Of a stretch of DNA of 64,000 nucleotides, positions 41,219 through 53,700 are shown one piece after another. Positions within the stretch are counted from its first letter, which is position 1. Every line of letters starts with the position of its first letter. Source of the DNA: Sorangiineae bacterium NIC37A_2 (GTDB taxonomy: Bacteria; Myxococcota_A; Polyangia; Polyangiales; Polyangiaceae). The notes under the pieces were generated by a model. The model ran no database searches. It was not told the origin of the DNA and worked only from the letters and a program-made list of their open reading frames with translations. The stretch lies in NCBI GenBank assembly GCA_002085155.1, contig NASX01000003.1, positions 36,808 to 100,807 of the forward strand. Reading direction: 5' to 3'. The translations under genes and the position numbers were made by a program.

Positions 41219-42871
41219 ATGCTGACGCGCCTCACCATCCAAAACATCGGCCTGATGCGAAGCGAACAGATCGCCTTGTCGCCGGGCTTCAACGTGATCA
41301 CCGGCGAGAGCGGCTCCGGAAAGTCGGTGCTCTTGAGCGCACTCCGGTTTGTGCTCGGATCGGCGCGCCTCGCCGCCCCGGTTCCGAATCCTGATCTGCC
41401 CGCGCGGGTCGAAGCGGTCTTCACCGTACGCCCGGGCAGCTTCGAAGAGTCAGTGCTCGGGGCGCTCGGCCGGCGAGCGAAGGGACCGCTCGTCCTTTCT
41501 CGAGAAATCGATGAACGGGGCCGCACGCGGGCCACGATCGACGGCGAGAAGGTCCCTCTGAAGACCTTGGCTGAGGTCGGAGAGTGCCTCCTCGCGAGTT
41601 CCACGCAGGGGCAGAGCACGCTGCTCCGCAAACCCAAGGCGCAGCTCGCCCTCTACGATAGCGTGCTCGGTCTCTCCGAAGAGGCCCGGAAAGTCAGTGA
41701 GCTTCACGCGGCCTGGTCCGAGGCCAAGAGCGCCCTACGCCAGGTGACCAGTGAGCTCGAGCGGGCAGAGGCGCGCCGGGAGCTCCTCGAGTACCAAGCC
41801 GCCGAGCTCGACGGGCTCCCGGAGCTCGACTTCGACGCCCTCGAAGAGAAAGCCGAAGCGCTCGCAGACCGAAAGCGCGCCATCGAGGCCGCCGAGGCGC
41901 TCCTCGCCGAGCTCTGCCCCACTGACACCACGAGCATCCGCCAAACCCTGCGCGCAGCACTGCGCTCAGCGCATGCGCTGAGCGCAGTGCATTCTGAAAA
42001 GGTCGGGGCGCTGCTCTCTGGCGCGTTGCATCAGATTGAAGAAGCCGTCTACGAGCTCGAGCGCGAAATCGAAGACGGGCGAAGCGACGCGCTCGAGTTC
42101 GAAGAGACGCTCTCGCTCTCCCAGAGAGTCCGCGACTTGAGCCAGAAGTACCGAGTAGCTCCCCAGGAACTCTCCCGACTCGCAGCGGAGAGGCGGCGTG
42201 AGCTCGAGGAGCTCGAGCGGCGCCGAACGGCCGCGACTGAGCTCGCGAGAGCAGTGTCAGAGCGCGAGGCAGAGCTCGTCCGGGCGGCCGATCGACTCCA
42301 CGAGCGGCGCGCGAAAGGCGCACGACGAGCCACAGAACAACTGGCCCTGCGCCTCGCCCGTCTCGGCCTCGAAGCGGTGAGCGTCCGCTTCGAACTCTCG
42401 CTCGTGGAGCTTGGCCCGAGCGGCGTCTCCGGGCTGACTGTTCTTTTCTCCCCCTACCCCGGCGCCGAAGAAGTGCCGATCGGTCGCGCCGCGTCAGGCG
42501 GCGAGTTGAGCCGGGTGCTCTTGGCCCTGCTTCTTACAAGTCGCTCACGTCCCCAGTCCCTGGTTCTCGACGAGATCGACGCCGGAACCAGCGGCGAGGC
42601 AAACACCAGGATCGCCCAGGCCTTGCTCGAAGAGGGGGACGACAGCCAGTTCATCGCCGTGACCCATTCACCGCTCCTCGCCGCGAAGGCGCGGGAACAT
42701 ATCCTGGTCGAGAAATCTCTTGTCCCCGCACCGACCTCGAAGGTTCGAGTCCTGGGCCCGGAAGAGCGCAGGCAGGAGCTCGAACGCATGCTCGGCGGAG
42801 GTCCGACGGCGACCAGCCACGCCGCAGCGCTGCTCGGTCGAGAGCGCCCGCTCCGGCTAGTCGCGTCCTAA
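41219..42871 (+). CDS. recN: DNA repair protein RecN
   Basis: A 550-residue SMC-like ATPase for double-strand break repair. N-terminal LTIQNIGLMRSEQIALSPGF, Walker A GESGSGKSVLLSAL, a central coiled coil (about 150-370), then signature AASGGELSRVLLALLL and Walker B LVLDEIDAGTSGEA, ending with the family's ITHS-like FIAVTHSPLLAAKAREH. ATG at 41219. Residues about 247-258 are encoded by a perfect 34-bp palindrome. No clear LexA-type box was seen upstream. Confidence 0.95.
   Translation: MLTRLTIQNIGLMRSEQIALSPGFNVITGESGSGKSVLLSALRFVLGSARLAAPVPNPDLPARVEAVFTVRPGSFEESVLGALGRRAKGPLVLSREIDERGRTRATIDGEKVPLKTLAEVGECLLASSTQGQSTLLRKPKAQLALYDSVLGLSEEARKVSELHAAWSEAKSALRQVTSELERAEARRELLEYQAAELDGLPELDFDALEEKAEALADRKRAIEAAEALLAELCPTDTTSIRQTLRAALRSAHALSAVHSEKVGALLSGALHQIEEAVYELEREIEDGRSDALEFEETLSLSQRVRDLSQKYRVAPQELSRLAAERRRELEELERRRTAATELARAVSEREAELVRAADRLHERRAKGARRATEQLALRLARLGLEAVSVRFELSLVELGPSGVSGLTVLFSPYPGAEEVPIGRAASGGELSRVLLALLLTSRSRPQSLVLDEIDAGTSGEANTRIAQALLEEGDDSQFIAVTHSPLLAAKAREHILVEKSLVPAPTSKVRVLGPEERRQELERMLGGGPTATSHAAALLGRERPLRLVAS
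41957..41990. repeat. 34-bp perfect palindrome inside recN
   Basis: Positions 41957-41973 and 41974-41990 are exact reverse complements (arm GCACTGCGCTCAGCGCA). It is coding for ALRSAHALSAVHS in the RecN coiled-coil region. Confidence 0.95.
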
Positions 42872-42932: not shown

Positions 42933-43265
42933 TCAGACCGCTGACGGGGCAGGCTCGTCCTTGTCGTGCTTGCCTTCGCCGCCACACAGAGCCGACGGGG
43001 CTGGCTCGTCCTTGTCGTGCTTGCCTTCGCCGCCACACAGAGCCGACGGGGCAGGCTCGTCCTTGTCGTGCTTGCCTTCGCCGCCACACAGAGCCGACGG
43101 GGCAGGCTCGTCCTTGTCGTGCTTGCCTTCGCCACCACACAGAGCCGACGGGGCAGGCTCGTCCTTGTCGTGCTTGCCTTCGCCACCACAAGCCAGCACC
43201 TGCCCGGCGGAGAGATAGGCAGCGGCAGCCAGGACCACGGACAGAGGGGTCTTCAGGTTTCTCAT
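42933..43265 (-). CDS. Small exported protein made of five 17-residue tandem repeats
   Basis: The ATG at 43265 starts a signal peptide (MRNLKTPLSVVLAAAAYLSA, then GQVLAC). The whole mature protein is five near-identical copies of CGGEGKHDKDEPAPSAL, each starting with cysteine and rich in Asp, Glu, His and Lys. The 110-residue product could be a lipoprotein or a cleaved secreted peptide. No enzyme domain. The charged, His- and Cys-containing units suggest metal or surface binding, by inference. The repeat nature keeps other frames open on both strands, but only this frame has a signal peptide. Confidence 0.6.
   Translation of the reverse strand: MRNLKTPLSVVLAAAAYLSAGQVLACGGEGKHDKDEPAPSALCGGEGKHDKDEPAPSALCGGEGKHDKDEPAPSALCGGEGKHDKDEPAPSALCGGEGKHDKDEPAPSAV
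42943..43191. repeat. 51-bp tandem repeat array, about 4.9 copies
   Basis: Unit length 51 bp (17 codons), copies beginning near 42943, 42994, 43045, 43096 and 43147. Copy 2 has one A-to-T change (ggctgg) and copies 4-5 read gccacc in place of gccgcc. Near identity suggests recent expansion. No spacers differ between units, so not a CRISPR. Confidence 0.95.
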
Positions 43266-43411
43266 GAGCCTACGATGACCCGCTGCGAAAAATTCGCAAG
43301 CCGATGGGGCGCGAATCCAGCTTTGCACTGAGGGAAAAATCGGGGGGGAAGACCCGGAAGTCCACGGAAAGCGCGGGCAAGGGAGCCCATTTTCAGCTAT
43401 AGCCCGCGCCG

Positions 43412-44542
43412 ATGTTCGAAGGCACTGCAAAGGCGCCGGCCCCCTTTCTGGCCCCGACCGGACCGGTCCACGAAGCCCCTCTCGCGCGGCTCGACACCGC
43501 CTGGGCCCGGGCTTGGGCTAAAGCTCTCAACGACCCCCGAGACGTCGTCTTCGTCAACTTGGCGCTGACGATCGCGGTCTTCGTTTGGCCCGCAGCGGTT
43601 TTCATCTTCACGCGCGACGCGGACTCCATCTGGCTTTGGGCGATCCCCTACTGGCTCGGCATTTCGCTGTTTGTCGATCGCTTCATCCTGATGCTCCACT
43701 GCACGAGCCACCGGACCCTCTTCAATCGGAAGCTCCGGGCGCTCAACCTTTTCATCCCCTGGGCTATCGGACCTTTCATGGGGGAGACCCCGGAAAGCTA
43801 CTTCGTCCACCACATGGGGATGCACCACAAGGAGGGGAACCTCCCGGGCGACCTCTCGAGCACGATGCCCTACGACCGGGATCGTTTCTCGAACTGGCTC
43901 CGCTACTGGGGCCGCTTCATGTTCTTCGGTCTACCTGAGCTTTTCCTCTATCACCGGGCCAAGCGCAGCGGGAAGTTGGTCGCGCGCCTCGCCATCGGTG
44001 AGCTCGGTTTCTGGCTCACCTGCGCCCTGCTTTGCCTCGTCAACTGGCAAGCCACGCTCATTGTCTTTGTCCTCCCGGTGCTCGTCGTGCGCACGCTGAT
44101 GATGGCGGGGAACTGGGGACAGCACGCCTTCGTTGACCCGGACGAGCCGAACAACGACTTCAAGAGCAGCATCACCTGCATCAACACCCGTTACAACAAG
44201 CGCTGCTTCAATGACGGGTACCACATCATTCACCACATCAGCCCGAGCCTGCACTACTCGGAGATGGCCGATGAATTCGCCAAGAACATCCGCCTGTACG
44301 GTGAGCAGGACGCGATCGTGTTCGATGGATACGACTTCTTCCAGGTCTGGTTCCTGCTCATGACGGGCCAGAAGAAGAAGCTCGCTCGAGCCTTCGTCCA
44401 GCTCCCGGGCGCGCCTGTGCGCACCGAGGAAGAGATCATCGCGCTCTTCGATCGTCGCACTCGCCGCTTCCCTGCGGAGAAAGCAGCGCCGCCGCCGAGC
44501 TGGTTCTTGCCCCGTTTCACGGATCCGAGCCCCCTGTCGTGA
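43412..44542 (+). CDS. Membrane fatty acid desaturase
   Basis: A 376-residue integral-membrane di-iron desaturase. The three histidine boxes are visible: HCTSH (about 98), HHMGMHH (about 131) and HIIHH (about 271). Several hydrophobic spans surround them (VVFVNLALTIAVFVWPAAVF, GELGFWLTCALLCLVNW). The regioselectivity and whether free acids or phospholipid chains are used cannot be told. A zinc protease-like gene follows with a GTGA overlap. Confidence 0.88.
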   Translation: MFEGTAKAPAPFLAPTGPVHEAPLARLDTAWARAWAKALNDPRDVVFVNLALTIAVFVWPAAVFIFTRDADSIWLWAIPYWLGISLFVDRFILMLHCTSHRTLFNRKLRALNLFIPWAIGPFMGETPESYFVHHMGMHHKEGNLPGDLSSTMPYDRDRFSNWLRYWGRFMFFGLPELFLYHRAKRSGKLVARLAIGELGFWLTCALLCLVNWQATLIVFVLPVLVVRTLMMAGNWGQHAFVDPDEPNNDFKSSITCINTRYNKRCFNDGYHIIHHISPSLHYSEMADEFAKNIRLYGEQDAIVFDGYDFFQVWFLLMTGQKKKLARAFVQLPGAPVRTEEEIIALFDRRTRRFPAEKAAPPPSWFLPRFTDPSPLS

Positions 44543-48130: not shown

Positions 48131-48276
48131 CGCTCTCGCTCGAGAGTCGCTCAGTTCGAGCGACCGCGGACGCGATCTCGAAGCGCGTGGAGGAACGTGA
48201 GCGCTCTCGCTCGAGAGTCGCTCAGTTCGAGCGACCGCGGACGCGATCTCGAAGCGCGTGGAGGAACGTGAGCGCT
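48131..48276. repeat. 71-bp tandem duplication spanning the mutS stop codon
   Basis: Two exact 71-bp copies start at 48131 and 48202, with 4 further matching bases. The second copy holds the last 48 coding bases of mutS plus the stop; the first copy lies entirely downstream and, as 71 is not a multiple of 3, is out of frame. Confidence 0.95.
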
Positions 48277-50783
48277 TCGAGCCCGTTCATTCGATCGAGG
48301 TCGAGAGAAAGAACGAGCTCCTCGAGCTCACTCGGCTTCTTCGGCGCTGGGGCGGACGTCTGGGCCGGGCGCAGCTTCGCCGCGCTCGGCTCGCTCTCCA
48401 AGGCCTCGAGCAGGGTCTGAGCGCGCTCCAGGACTTCCGCGGGCAGTCCGGCGAGCCGCGCCACCGAAATGCCGTAGCTCTTGGAAGCTGCGCCGCTCGC
48501 GATCCGGTGCAAAAAGACGATCGTGCCGCCCTCCTCGCTGGCGAGCGCTGCGTGATTCGTCGTGTGAGGGCTCGATTCAGCGAGACGCGTCAGCTCATGA
48601 TAATGAGTCGCAAACAGCGTCCGGCAGGCCACAACTCCTTGCAGGTATTCAGCCACGGCCCAAGCGATCGAGAGACCGTCGAAGGTGCTCGTGCCGCGCC
48701 CGATCTCATCCACGATGACCAGGGAAGCCCGGGTCGCGACTCTGAGAATGTTCGCGGTCTCTCTCATCTCGACCATGAACGTGCTCTCTCCGCCGGCCAA
48801 ATTGTCGCCCGAGCCGAGGCGGGACAAGATCTTGTCGACGACGCCAATGTGCGCCCGCTTCGCGGGCACAAAAGAGCCCATTTGGGCGAGCACCACGATC
48901 AGCGCCGTTTGCCGGAGGAACGTGCTCTTTCCTGCCATATTCGGCCCGGTGATGAGCCACATGCGCTCACCTCCCGCATCGAGCCGCACATCGTTCGGCA
49001 CAAAACGCTCCCTCCCCGCGCGCCGCTCGACGACCGGGTGCCGAGCGTCTTCAAGCTCGAGCCGCTCGCTCTCGTCCACGGTGGGCTCAACGTAGTCATA
49101 CTCTCGCGCCACGTCAGCGAGAGCTGCCGCAACGTCGAGAGCAGCTAAGCGATGAGCGAGGGAGTGAATGCGCGCGGCCCCCGCTGCGAGCTTCGCGACG
49201 AGCTCCTGGAATAGCTCAAGCTCCCGCTCGCGTTCAGCCTCCTCCGCGTCAAGCACCTCATGAGCGAGCTGGTCGAGCTCCGGGAACGTGTAACGTTCGC
49301 CGCCCGCCACCGTCTGCTTCCTGGTCCAACTGGGAGGGACCTTCCGAGTGTTGCTCTTGGTGACCTCGACGTACCATCCGAACACGCGCGTCGAACGAAC
49401 GCGCAGGCCGGTGATGCCCGTCTCTTGCTTGAGGCGCTCTTCGATGCGCGCCATGCCCTCGCCGCCCGAGGTCCTAAGCTCGCGCGCCCGATCGAGATCG
49501 GCGTCGAATCCTTCGCGAAATACGGCGCCGTCCTTGAGCAGGGTCGGCGGACGCTCGACGAGCGCTCGGGTGAGGAGCTCCAATAGCTCCGGGGCCAAGT
49601 CGATCCCTTCCGGCCAGCAAAGAGCAGAGCGCAGCTCCGGCGTCGCGCGCTCCCGGAGCAGTTCTGCGACTTGCGCGGCGCCCTGAAGGCCCCGACGAAT
49701 GAGCCCCAAATCCCGCGGCGTCGCCTCCCCGTAGCCGAGGCGCACTGCCAGCCGCTCGAGGTCCGTCACTTCGGCCAGGCGGTCTCTCAGGCCAGTGCGG
49801 AGCGCGTCGTTTTCGACGAGGGCGCGCACCTCCGCGAGCCGAGCGCGGATTTCCGGGACCGCCGTGAGCGGGGCCAAGAGGCGCATCCGAAGCAAACGCG
49901 CCCCCGCGGCGGTCTTCGTTCGATCGATGACCGACAGCAGCGTCGCCGAGCGATCGCCGCTCAAGGCCTCGATGAGCTCGAGGTGCTGCGCAGCACCCGC
50001 CGCGAGCTCGAGCGCCCCCGAGGTGTTCCACACATTCACGCGGAACAGCGGGATCGATTTGCCCGGCATGCAGGCGCGGGCGAACCCCAGCACAAGCTCC
50101 GTCGCCCGCCGCACGGACTCGGGAGCCTCGAGGTCCTGGAAGACGACCTCCTGCGCGGGCGAAGATGGCGCCGGGTCGGTCACCTCTCGGACGGCGGTCC
50201 GCGGCAAGAGCCCCGCGACTTCCGCCGGAGCGACGCCGCTCACAAGGAGCTCTCGGGGCGCGAGGCGCTGGAGCTCCGAGATCGCTGAGGCCAGATCCGA
50301 AAGCTCAGCCGCGCGCAGGTCGGCGGTCGTCAGATCGACCGCCGCGAGCCCAATCTTCGACGGTTTGCCGTGGCGATCCGTCGTGACAAAGAGGGCCGCG
50401 AGAAAGGTATGGAGCGCGTCGGTCTGCGCCGAGGCATCTGTCCAGGTGCCCGGGGTGATGACCCGGACCACCTCGCGAGGGACGATGCCGCGTACCGTCT
50501 TCGGGTCCGCCATCTGCTCGCAGAGGGCGACCTTGTAGCCCCGCTCCATGAGCCGCGCGATGTAGGAGTGCGCCGCGTGGTGCGGCACCCCCGCCATCGG
50601 GATCTCATCGGGTTTCCCGCGATTTCGGCTGGTCAGCGTCAGCTCGAGGATCTCGGAGGCAACGACCGCGTCGTCGCCGAACATCTCGTAGAAGTCCCCG
50701 AGTCGGAAGAAGATGATGCAGTCCGGGTGAGCACGTTTTGCAGCCGCATGCTGCAACATGACGGGGGTCTCGCTCGCCGCCAT
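48222..50783 (-). CDS. mutS: DNA mismatch repair protein MutS
   Basis: MutS recognises mismatches and starts methyl- or strand-directed repair. The N-terminal domain has PDCIIFFRLGDFYEMFGDDA with the mismatch-stacking Phe-x-Glu; the C-terminal ATPase has ITGPNMAGKSTFLRQ, LVIVDEIGRGTSTFDGLS and THYHELTRLAE. Start ATG at 50783 follows AGGGAG, giving 853 residues; a TTG at 50816 would overlap the upstream gene. The last 16 codons and stop fall in a 71-bp tandem duplication without loss of protein. Confidence 0.96.
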   Translation of the reverse strand: MAASETPVMLQHAAAKRAHPDCIIFFRLGDFYEMFGDDAVVASEILELTLTSRNRGKPDEIPMAGVPHHAAHSYIARLMERGYKVALCEQMADPKTVRGIVPREVVRVITPGTWTDASAQTDALHTFLAALFVTTDRHGKPSKIGLAAVDLTTADLRAAELSDLASAISELQRLAPRELLVSGVAPAEVAGLLPRTAVREVTDPAPSSPAQEVVFQDLEAPESVRRATELVLGFARACMPGKSIPLFRVNVWNTSGALELAAGAAQHLELIEALSGDRSATLLSVIDRTKTAAGARLLRMRLLAPLTAVPEIRARLAEVRALVENDALRTGLRDRLAEVTDLERLAVRLGYGEATPRDLGLIRRGLQGAAQVAELLRERATPELRSALCWPEGIDLAPELLELLTRALVERPPTLLKDGAVFREGFDADLDRARELRTSGGEGMARIEERLKQETGITGLRVRSTRVFGWYVEVTKSNTRKVPPSWTRKQTVAGGERYTFPELDQLAHEVLDAEEAERERELELFQELVAKLAAGAARIHSLAHRLAALDVAAALADVAREYDYVEPTVDESERLELEDARHPVVERRAGRERFVPNDVRLDAGGERMWLITGPNMAGKSTFLRQTALIVVLAQMGSFVPAKRAHIGVVDKILSRLGSGDNLAGGESTFMVEMRETANILRVATRASLVIVDEIGRGTSTFDGLSIAWAVAEYLQGVVACRTLFATHYHELTRLAESSPHTTNHAALASEEGGTIVFLHRIASGAASKSYGISVARLAGLPAEVLERAQTLLEALESEPSAAKLRPAQTSAPAPKKPSELEELVLSLDLDRMNGLEALTFLHALRDRVRGRSN

Positions 50784-50793
50784 CTTCTCCCTC

Positions 50794-53700
50794 TCAGAAG
50801 AACTGGTCGACGACAATTCCCGCGCGCACGTCGACCATCAGCAACCCTCGCGTCGCCGAATCCACCACACCGACGGAGTTGAGCCAGGGGGCGCTCGCGA
50901 GCGACACGGGCAGGACGGCGTTCTGGTTCGTCGAGAGCTGGACCGAGTCGATCACAAATCCCGAACTGACCTCGAAGCTGAACGTCATGCCACGCACGGA
51001 AGGCTCAAGACCACGGTACACCGCGAAGCGGCGGGAAATCCCGTCGTAGATGCAGTTGCCTGCTTGGTCTCGAGGATCGATCGCTCCCCGGCTCGCGTCG
51101 TAGGCGCAGATCGGATCGTCCTGCCCCCGCGCTCCGACGCCGCAGGGCTCAGCCGCGTTCGGATCGGGATTGTCACAAGCCGTATTCGAGAGCTCGAAGA
51201 CTCGCCCACGCCGGCTCGCCTTGAGGGGGTGGCAATCGAGAGCGCAAACGCGAGAACCGTCCTCGCTTTCGACGCTGGTGATGGGGTGTTGGAAGCCCGA
51301 TGAGGTGCCTCGCACGACCCACTGTCGTGAAGCGCGGACCCGGTAAGCCAAAGGCCCCGGGAAACAGCAGCGGAGCATCGCGAGGTGATTGTCAGGATCG
51401 CCTTGGTACGGCGAGCGCGGCGTGACCGTGAGCGTGTCCTCCGTGGAGGAGAGGATCGTCAGATCTCGCTCGGGGCGCAGGTCTTGGAGATCGCTGTCGC
51501 CAAAGAGCGCGTCGCAAGTGTCGAAACCGCCCCCGTCCGTGCAGGCCAGGCCTTCCTTCTGCCAGTAGGCGTCTCGTTCGTCGAGGAGCTTGGAGACGAT
51601 CTGCACGTAGTCGGCGCGGCTCTTGCCAAACGCGTCGAGCGGCTGGCCACTCAGACCAAAATCGATCGCCGCCAGCTCCCGGGTGATCTGCTCGTCTTGG
51701 ACCCCTGAGCTGCAGAAATTTGCGTCGAAATCTACGAGGCGCGCCGTGTCACCGTCCACGGTGAGGATTCCGCCCGAGTGCAGACCGTCCAGCTCGCCTT
51801 CGTACACGACAGTGACGGTGTCTGACGGCGGGTAAGCTCGAGTCTCCACGAACGGAAGGACGACGGACGCCTGCTCTGCCCGGTTCGGATCGATCTCGAG
51901 GGGCGAGCTGAGCGAGTCGCGCACCCGAAGGGTTGTCCCGACGTACACCTGGGCAGGGTCGACGGAGCCACCGGGCGAAAGGAAATCTACGCCGAGCAGG
52001 ATCGGATTCTTCCTTCCCTCGAGGGTACGGCGGCTCACCGGCAGCCCCTGCCCCCCGAGCGCGAGTCGGGGCAACGAGACAAGAGCAGGAGCTCCCGTTC
52101 GTCCCACAGAATCATCGGTGATGATCAGGCCGCGGCGACCGTCTCCGATGCGCCCGCCACGAGCCCGAGCCCGGTGAGGCACAACGGCCCGACAGGTCGC
52201 TTCGTTCGTGACGGTGCTCACGCCGTCCGGCGTCTTGTCTAACGTGAAATAGCGGGTGCCCACCGGGTCATTGCGGCAACCACGGAAGTCGAACTCGCTC
52301 GAGGTGTTTGCCCGCGCATTGCGCCGACAAGCAGCGTCGTAGTCCTCGACATCCACGACGTTCACGCGACCGTCTGAGGTGAGCACGTAGGCGAAGATCC
52401 CGCGCAGCACGTTACCCGCCCCAGAGACCAGGCCGCTGTCCGAGCGCGCGAGCGCCCCGAGCGAATCGAGAGGCGCGTCGGGATCAGGATCACATTCAAC
52501 ACCATAGGCGCCCACGCCCTCATCGTTCGTCGGAGGGTCTTCCGCCATCACGAAGGCAATGTCCTTCACGCTGGCGGCAAACTCGATGCGGTCAGGAGCC
52601 TCAAAAGGCATCCAGGCAGAATCAGGGCGCACGAGCGGAGTTCGATCCAAAGCGTCTTCGCTCACGTCAAAGACCATGACGCTCGACGCCTGCTCTCCGA
52701 CCTGATCGACAGCGTAGAGGAAACGCTCCCCTTGGTTCGTCTCAGGGCTCAGAGCCAGACGTGAGGTTTTCACCACGCGCTCGGGGGAGAGGAAAGAGGT
52801 CGGCACCAGGGGTTCGAGCTCCCGCGGCGCACAGGGGTCGCGCACATCGACGCGATGGATCAAAGGCGCGCCGCTGTCGCCGACGAAAAGCGTCTCGTCG
52901 TCGTGGGCGAAGCCGGAAGGACGCGACGCAAAGGGGCCGTCAAAGGGTCCGTACGTCACAGAGTCCCCCAGACAACTTCCTTCCACTTTGAGATCGGGAG
53001 GGAGACTCTGGGTCACCTGAGCGGGCGGATCCGCGCGCAAGGGAAGCTCCGCCTCGATAGCGCAGGGCTCGAAGGTCCCGGGCGTTCTCGAGAGGAGCTC
53101 CTGGGCGTCGAGCACCACAAGCTTTCCTTCTTCGGGGAGCGCGACGACGAGCTTCTGAGTCCCGAGCTCCGCGCCGATCTCCTCCGAGAGGTCCGTCGCG
53201 CATTCCCCTTCGGGGGCCGGCGGCGCCGAGCCTCCACAGAGAAGACTGGAGCCGCCATCGACGCGCTGGGTATCGAGGACCACGGCCATGTCGCCGGGTG
53301 CCGAGGAAAGGGCACAGGCGGGCCAGGTCGTGATATCGCGAACTCCCTGCTCTCGCCCGGCGACCGGCTCAAAGATGCACTTGGTGGGCAGACCGAAGAT
53401 TCCGGGGCGGCCGAGCTGCTTCACGCCAACGAAGCTCGCGTGACCGCCACGGGTCGTCACAATGTCCTCAGGTTCAAGTCCAACGCGGAGCGGCGTCTTG
53501 CCTGGGTTCGAGCGATCGGCATCAAGCACCTGCGCCTGCTGGACTCCGCTTCGGCTGGAGACGCGAATCACTGCCACCTCACCCGTGGCCTTCTGGGTGA
53601 GGAGCGCGAACATATCGTGGTTCGGATCGGCAACGGTGAGGGCTCCGTCGCTCCCAATCGGGCCGCGCGGACAAGCGTCGAGGGGCGCCCCTTCCCCGGT

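Follow-up and report, generated by a model that had tools for sequence, protein, structure and literature searches.

Yeast alpha-factor and the cyanobactin precursors with several cores are multi-copy peptide precursors, while MYXO-CTERM proteins are sorted by a C-terminal Cys motif together with a transmembrane helix and an Arg cluster. Small exported tandem-repeat proteins in general are already a known kind, and modification by an MNIO has been well described for small Cys proteins that are exported by Sec (PMC12452194). Here we describe a gene for an exported protein built of Cys-bearing repeats, found in the window, by which we mean the whole 64,000-nucleotide stretch of the Sorangiineae bacterium NIC37A_2 genome (G000; a draft assembly of 5.0 Mb in 150 contigs) that was analyzed. 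The gene belongs to a real protein family of Polyangiaceae, for which we propose a role only tentatively.

The reading frame (Table 1) starts with an ATG at 43265 and stops with a TGA at 42935-42933. Its product consists of MRNLKTPLSVVLAAAAYLSAGQVLA followed by (CGGEGKHDKDEPAPSAL)x5, in 17-residue units, the last of which ends in SAV. An earlier note on this DNA had described an exported periodic protein with one Cys per unit, and both the frame as read and the homologs of the same design bear this out. Tandem Repeats Finder reports the array at 42943-43190 (period 51, 4.9 copies, 98% match, score 475), which is by far the strongest in the window. Elsewhere, at 48131-48276, a 71-bp sequence is perfectly duplicated in tandem (2.1 copies, 100%), and the duplication takes in the 3′ end of mutS (48222..50816, minus) and the adjoining intergenic stretch. 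As the 51-bp period is divisible by three, several frames are open through the repeat array on both strands, and the openness of the repeat frame was therefore not used as evidence. Five codon columns vary among the five units; four of these changes are synonymous, and the fifth turns the final L into V. Judging from such synonymous differences, from synteny, and from homologs that share the frame, the signal peptide and the unit design, we take the frame to be a genuine gene. The exact number of five units could be affected by assembly, because short repeats are at issue in a draft of 150 contigs.

Table 1. Coordinates of the repeat gene and its neighbors in the window, and of similar proteins from other families of the phylum
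Feature	Position	Strand	Basis
Whole ORF, 110 aa + stop	43265..42933	minus	ORF list, sequence read, homologs
Signal peptide MRNLKTPLSVVLAAAAYLSAGQVLA	43191..43265	minus	sequence read directly
Five 51-bp units CGGEGKHDKDEPAPSA(L/V)	42936..43190	minus	Tandem Repeats Finder + sequence read
recN, convergent neighbor	41219..42871	plus	ORF list; adjacency kept in G002
Fatty acid desaturase, divergent neighbor (context only)	43412..44542	plus	ORF list
Similar protein L309	G390:C244:1009-1536		
Similar protein L308	G543:C324		
Similar protein L306	G052:C249:1739-1957		
Similar protein L307	G047:C113		

The signal peptide has a VLA|C end that would suit signal peptidase I-like cleavage. In an AlphaFold model of the single window sequence, which as a single-sequence model is weak evidence, no order is seen past the signal helix (mean pLDDT 47), and the protein beyond that helix is predicted to be disordered, as expected for such a sequence. 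A consensus scan found neither a sigma-70-like promoter nor an intrinsic terminator at the gene. An inverted repeat, TGCGAA-AAA-TTCGCA, lies at 43284-43298, ~19 bp upstream of the ATG, and GAATTTTTC is common to the upstream regions of the window gene and its G002 ortholog, although this is borderline (shuffle p ~0.05). The window's own genome holds no paralog of the repeat gene.

A single-sequence search with the window protein retrieved G010 (E 1e-7), with three units of the form CGG...PSVL, and G002, which is of the same genus as the window and has two units CGGDSDAPSDES(A/L)L. Searching with G010 led to G064 (three units CGGGKKADDSKKKDRKNPSPAAL), and G064 in turn led to G022 (E 1e-8) and G007 (E 3e-6) and, more weakly, to G073 and G100. 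Profiles made from the early members then recovered G068 (two units) and the one-unit members G103, G023, G102, G101, G104, and G099, all of which were outside the profile. We count 14 complete members, namely the window protein, G002, and 12 further exported Polyangiaceae proteins of one to three units; G073 was left out, as a contig end cuts its gene. Because low complexity softens the E-values, synteny matters for membership. Weak profile matches elsewhere (E 1e-5 to 1e-2) were mostly lipoprotein starts and other signal peptides, and one profile (A3) proved to lack any part of sufficient conservation for scanning the whole collection. A search of 183 genomes of the order with the DNA pattern CTGTGYGGNGG...CTGTGYGGNGG found arrays of such design only in the window itself, and the remaining matches were unrelated GC-rich repeats. 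The earlier note had named relatives without the signal peptide and reading frame as a finding that would speak against the gene; the relatives retain both.

Three loci are conserved between species, and the distribution of the gene within Polyangiaceae is patchy. The two-unit G002 ortholog is convergent with recN and adjacent to it, just like the window gene, and among the recN loci of 30 relatives these two alone have the small gene; in G001, the 206-bp gap after recN holds no recognizable remnant of it. As to gene order, recN and the neighboring ABC-F gene are in tandem in G001 (L154) and G002 (L147), whereas in the window recN and the repeat gene are inverted relative to ABC-F. The second locus is that of G022, G064, and G068, where the gene and that of one flavin monooxygenase, a protein with FAD_binding_3 and Oxidored_FMN domains, are divergently oriented. 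At the third, in G023, G103, G101, and G102, the gene lies 51-140 bp before yggX (PF04362) on the same strand; G100 has the upstream genes of this locus, and its contig ends after the small gene. In a yggX scan of the genome contigs, the small gene preceded yggX in only 4 of 80 loci, all of genus g22. In G007, G010, G099, and G104 the gene is at other places. No partner gene is conserved, the neighbors being recN, yggX, the flavin monooxygenase, a prmC-like gene and others, and no modifying enzyme is linked to the members.

The number of units differs at each of these loci, with five in the window (draft assembly) vs two in G002 beside recN, three in G064 vs two in G022 and G068 beside the flavoprotein gene, and two in G100 vs one in G023, G103, G101, and G102 at yggX. 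The earlier expectation that copy number changes thus holds between species at orthologous loci, although it had been voiced for strains. The near-identity of the units at the DNA level, also put forward in that note, is a property of the window array but not of the relatives, in which synonymous sites have clearly diverged while the protein stays alike. Across the units within one protein (pooled over G002, G064, G010, G007, and G068), 22.5 of 64 synonymous sites differ vs 9.5 of 245 non-synonymous sites (pS 0.35 vs pN 0.04; Fisher p ~3e-10, with sites that are not fully independent). In G002, the units have changed at 7 of ~10 synonymous sites and at one amino acid. Since pS is far above pN, the likeness of the units does not merely reflect recent duplication, and the amino acids of each unit are selected; the codon comparison shows that purifying selection keeps the modules within one protein alike in amino acids. 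For orthologous one-unit pairs, dN/dS is 0.15 (G099/G104), 0.24 (G101/G102), and 0.29 (G103/G023). The core, in contrast, differs completely between species of the same genus, being EGKHDKDEPAP in the window and DSDAPSDE in G002.

All 14 members have a signal peptide, read directly and by composition. They carry one Cys per unit, that is, one per 14-34 residues, and this Cys is followed by Gly (with one CDG exception) and in most is preceded a few residues earlier by Pro; the units have Pro-containing, NP(S/A)-like or PSxL-like ends, and aromatic residues are almost absent. The net charge varies between strongly acidic, in G010, and basic, in G064; His occurs in 3 of the 14, and the one-unit members (G103, G023, G101, G102, G099, G104) have a single mature Cys. 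Metal binding, which the earlier note had listed among the possible roles, is not supported by this comparison as a common function. Neither the sign of the charge nor His is conserved and the one-unit members offer one ligand thiol, which argues against simple metal binding and makes it unlikely as a function shared by the family.

We tentatively read the family as exported, disordered, multivalent single-thiol module proteins that act by intermolecular thiol chemistry, a reading that we regard as plausible, if short of probable. In the sequences, a Sec-type signal peptide precedes one to five modules, and each module has one Cys with Gly after it, then a charged, hydrophilic segment, and finally an NP(S/A)- or PSxL-like end that contains Pro. 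Signal peptidase I would cleave the chain, which would then remain in solution, either periplasmic or extracellular. Its thiols would make intermolecular or mixed disulfides, because the lone Cys of a one-module member cannot pair within its chain, and module number may set valency or dose. Candidate roles are thiol/redox buffering and thiol-mediated attachment. A link to oxidative stress would agree, though only weakly, with the position of the four members directly adjacent to yggX, and the patchy distribution means that the gene is not an essential buffer. The exact identity of units within a protein, moreover, exceeds what a generic thiol carrier would need.

That identity, together with the change between species, is explained best if the protein is a multi-copy precursor that is cut near the L|CGG junctions to release secreted peptides of 14-30 residues, identical to one another and specific to the species, like yeast alpha-factor or neuropeptide precursors. 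The units would keep their amino acids despite synonymous divergence, as they do in G002, and conserved ends would flank a core free to differ between species of one genus. However, no linked protease, exporter, receptor or processing gene was recognized at the member loci, members with one unit have no array to be cut from, and K/D/E cores of low complexity do not resemble known peptide signals, so that we consider such a precursor rather unlikely. It is more doubtful still that these are Cys-starting, species-specific peptides with copy number as dose in a Gram-negative social lineage, which would be a new class of bacterial peptide signal. Exported, disordered repeats with one Cys each might also cross-link mutually or with surface proteins into a disulfide-linked structural or matrix material, but very short one-unit members (18-34 residues from Cys on) could only dimerize, aromatic or Gly-rich matrix-like content is lacking, and matrix or adhesin genes do not consistently adjoin; a structural role is thus improbable.

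We think it no more promising that the proteins are outer-membrane lipoproteins, lipidated on the first Cys after the signal peptide with the remainder as a charged tail. In three members (the window protein, G002, and G010), that Cys does come straight after the hydrophobic segment (VLAC, VFAC, ALAC), and a CGG plus charged linker is common at the starts of predicted myxobacterial lipoproteins among the weak profile matches. Yet L or F at -2 makes no classical lipobox, the window having also Q at -4; the other eleven members have their first Cys in polar context several residues past an AxA-type site (e.g., ALASALDNPSCGG), and the internal Cys residues are left unexplained. A looser lipobox pattern fits G010 and G002, and the other eleven members do not conform to it. 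Going by these junctions, only the window protein, G002, and G010 could be lipidated on the first Cys. It is very unlikely that the members are unlinked substrates of an MNIO (DUF692), with Cys oxidized to thiooxazole in a bufferin- or oxazolin-like metallophore. Such precursors typically have a Sec signal peptide and Cys motifs (PMC12452194). An MNIO is encoded in the window genome and in most of the other member genomes that were checked, but 90 of 108 Polyangiaceae genomes encode one regardless, so that co-occurrence is uninformative. The MNIO gene is never beside a member in any locus read, and the MNIO-linked precursors that we inspected in these genomes have dense paired Cys (GCGGKGGCGG, CKGKDGCKG) where the family has widely spaced single ones. 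The least credible account is a function-less, fast-evolving orphan frame with repeats from replication slippage. Patchy distribution and extreme core divergence would suit it, but conserved synteny and purifying selection speak against it, and the ortholog dN/dS values and the within-protein pS vs pN largely refute it.

Searches of Pfam, NCBIfam, PHROGs, and PDB gave no significant match to the repeat protein (the best PHROG, of unknown function, had E 0.0085), and viral contigs held no relatives of it. The family is probably missing from Pfam, NCBIfam, and PHROGs owing to its shortness and low complexity. No description of such a family was found in the libraries and open-access papers searched, where absence is no proof; neither the family nor its loci or selection pattern appears to have been described. 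What is defined here is an unnamed exported protein family in Polyangiaceae, in a class, the small exported thiol proteins, that is under-annotated. Modules that are alike within a protein and a core that is switched between species hint at a sequence-specific function of each module, which can be tested, and the three conserved loci are places where a gene knockout or proteomics could be applied, provided that some carrier can be cultured.

Like bufferins and oxazolins, the members are small exported Cys proteins with a Sec signal peptide (14 of 14), and some bufferins have repeated EGKCG-type motifs; unlike them, the family has no linked MNIO or partner, and its Cys-Gly is sparse. No member has the dense Cys motifs of such precursors (EGKCG, CxxxxC, 6/12 Cys), and no MNIO (PF05114) gene follows a precursor among the member neighbors, the window genome's sole MNIO being on contig C79. 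Polyangiaceae genomes carry up to 7 MNIO genes, and several MNIO genes have open frames of at least 600 aa (G000, G390, G007; e.g., L198 G000:C79, L207 G007:C18), a length suggesting fusion with a partner domain. The family resembles metallothioneins in being short, disordered, Cys-bearing and almost free of aromatics, but it is exported, its Cys residues are far apart, and its members have no CxC/CC clusters and no metallothionein Pfam match. The MYXO-CTERM arrangement is absent, as the window C-terminus reads ...EPAPSAV with no hydrophobic helix. Like multi-copy precursors, the family has a signal or leader and then near-identical units with conserved ends and with cores that vary between species, while a processing enzyme, exporter or maturation gene was not recognized near its members. 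Other families of the phylum also have small exported proteins with two to five tandem C(P/G)G plus K/D/E repeats (Table 1). Those of G052, G047, G543, and G390 differ from our family in unit sequence and locus, lack NPSAL-like ends, and are apparently separate from it; those of G052 and G047 are orthologs of each other (dN/dS 0.24). All four nevertheless share with the repeat family a signal peptide and, after it, tandem units of Cys-Gly/Pro-Gly plus K/D/E, a likeness that is perhaps convergent.
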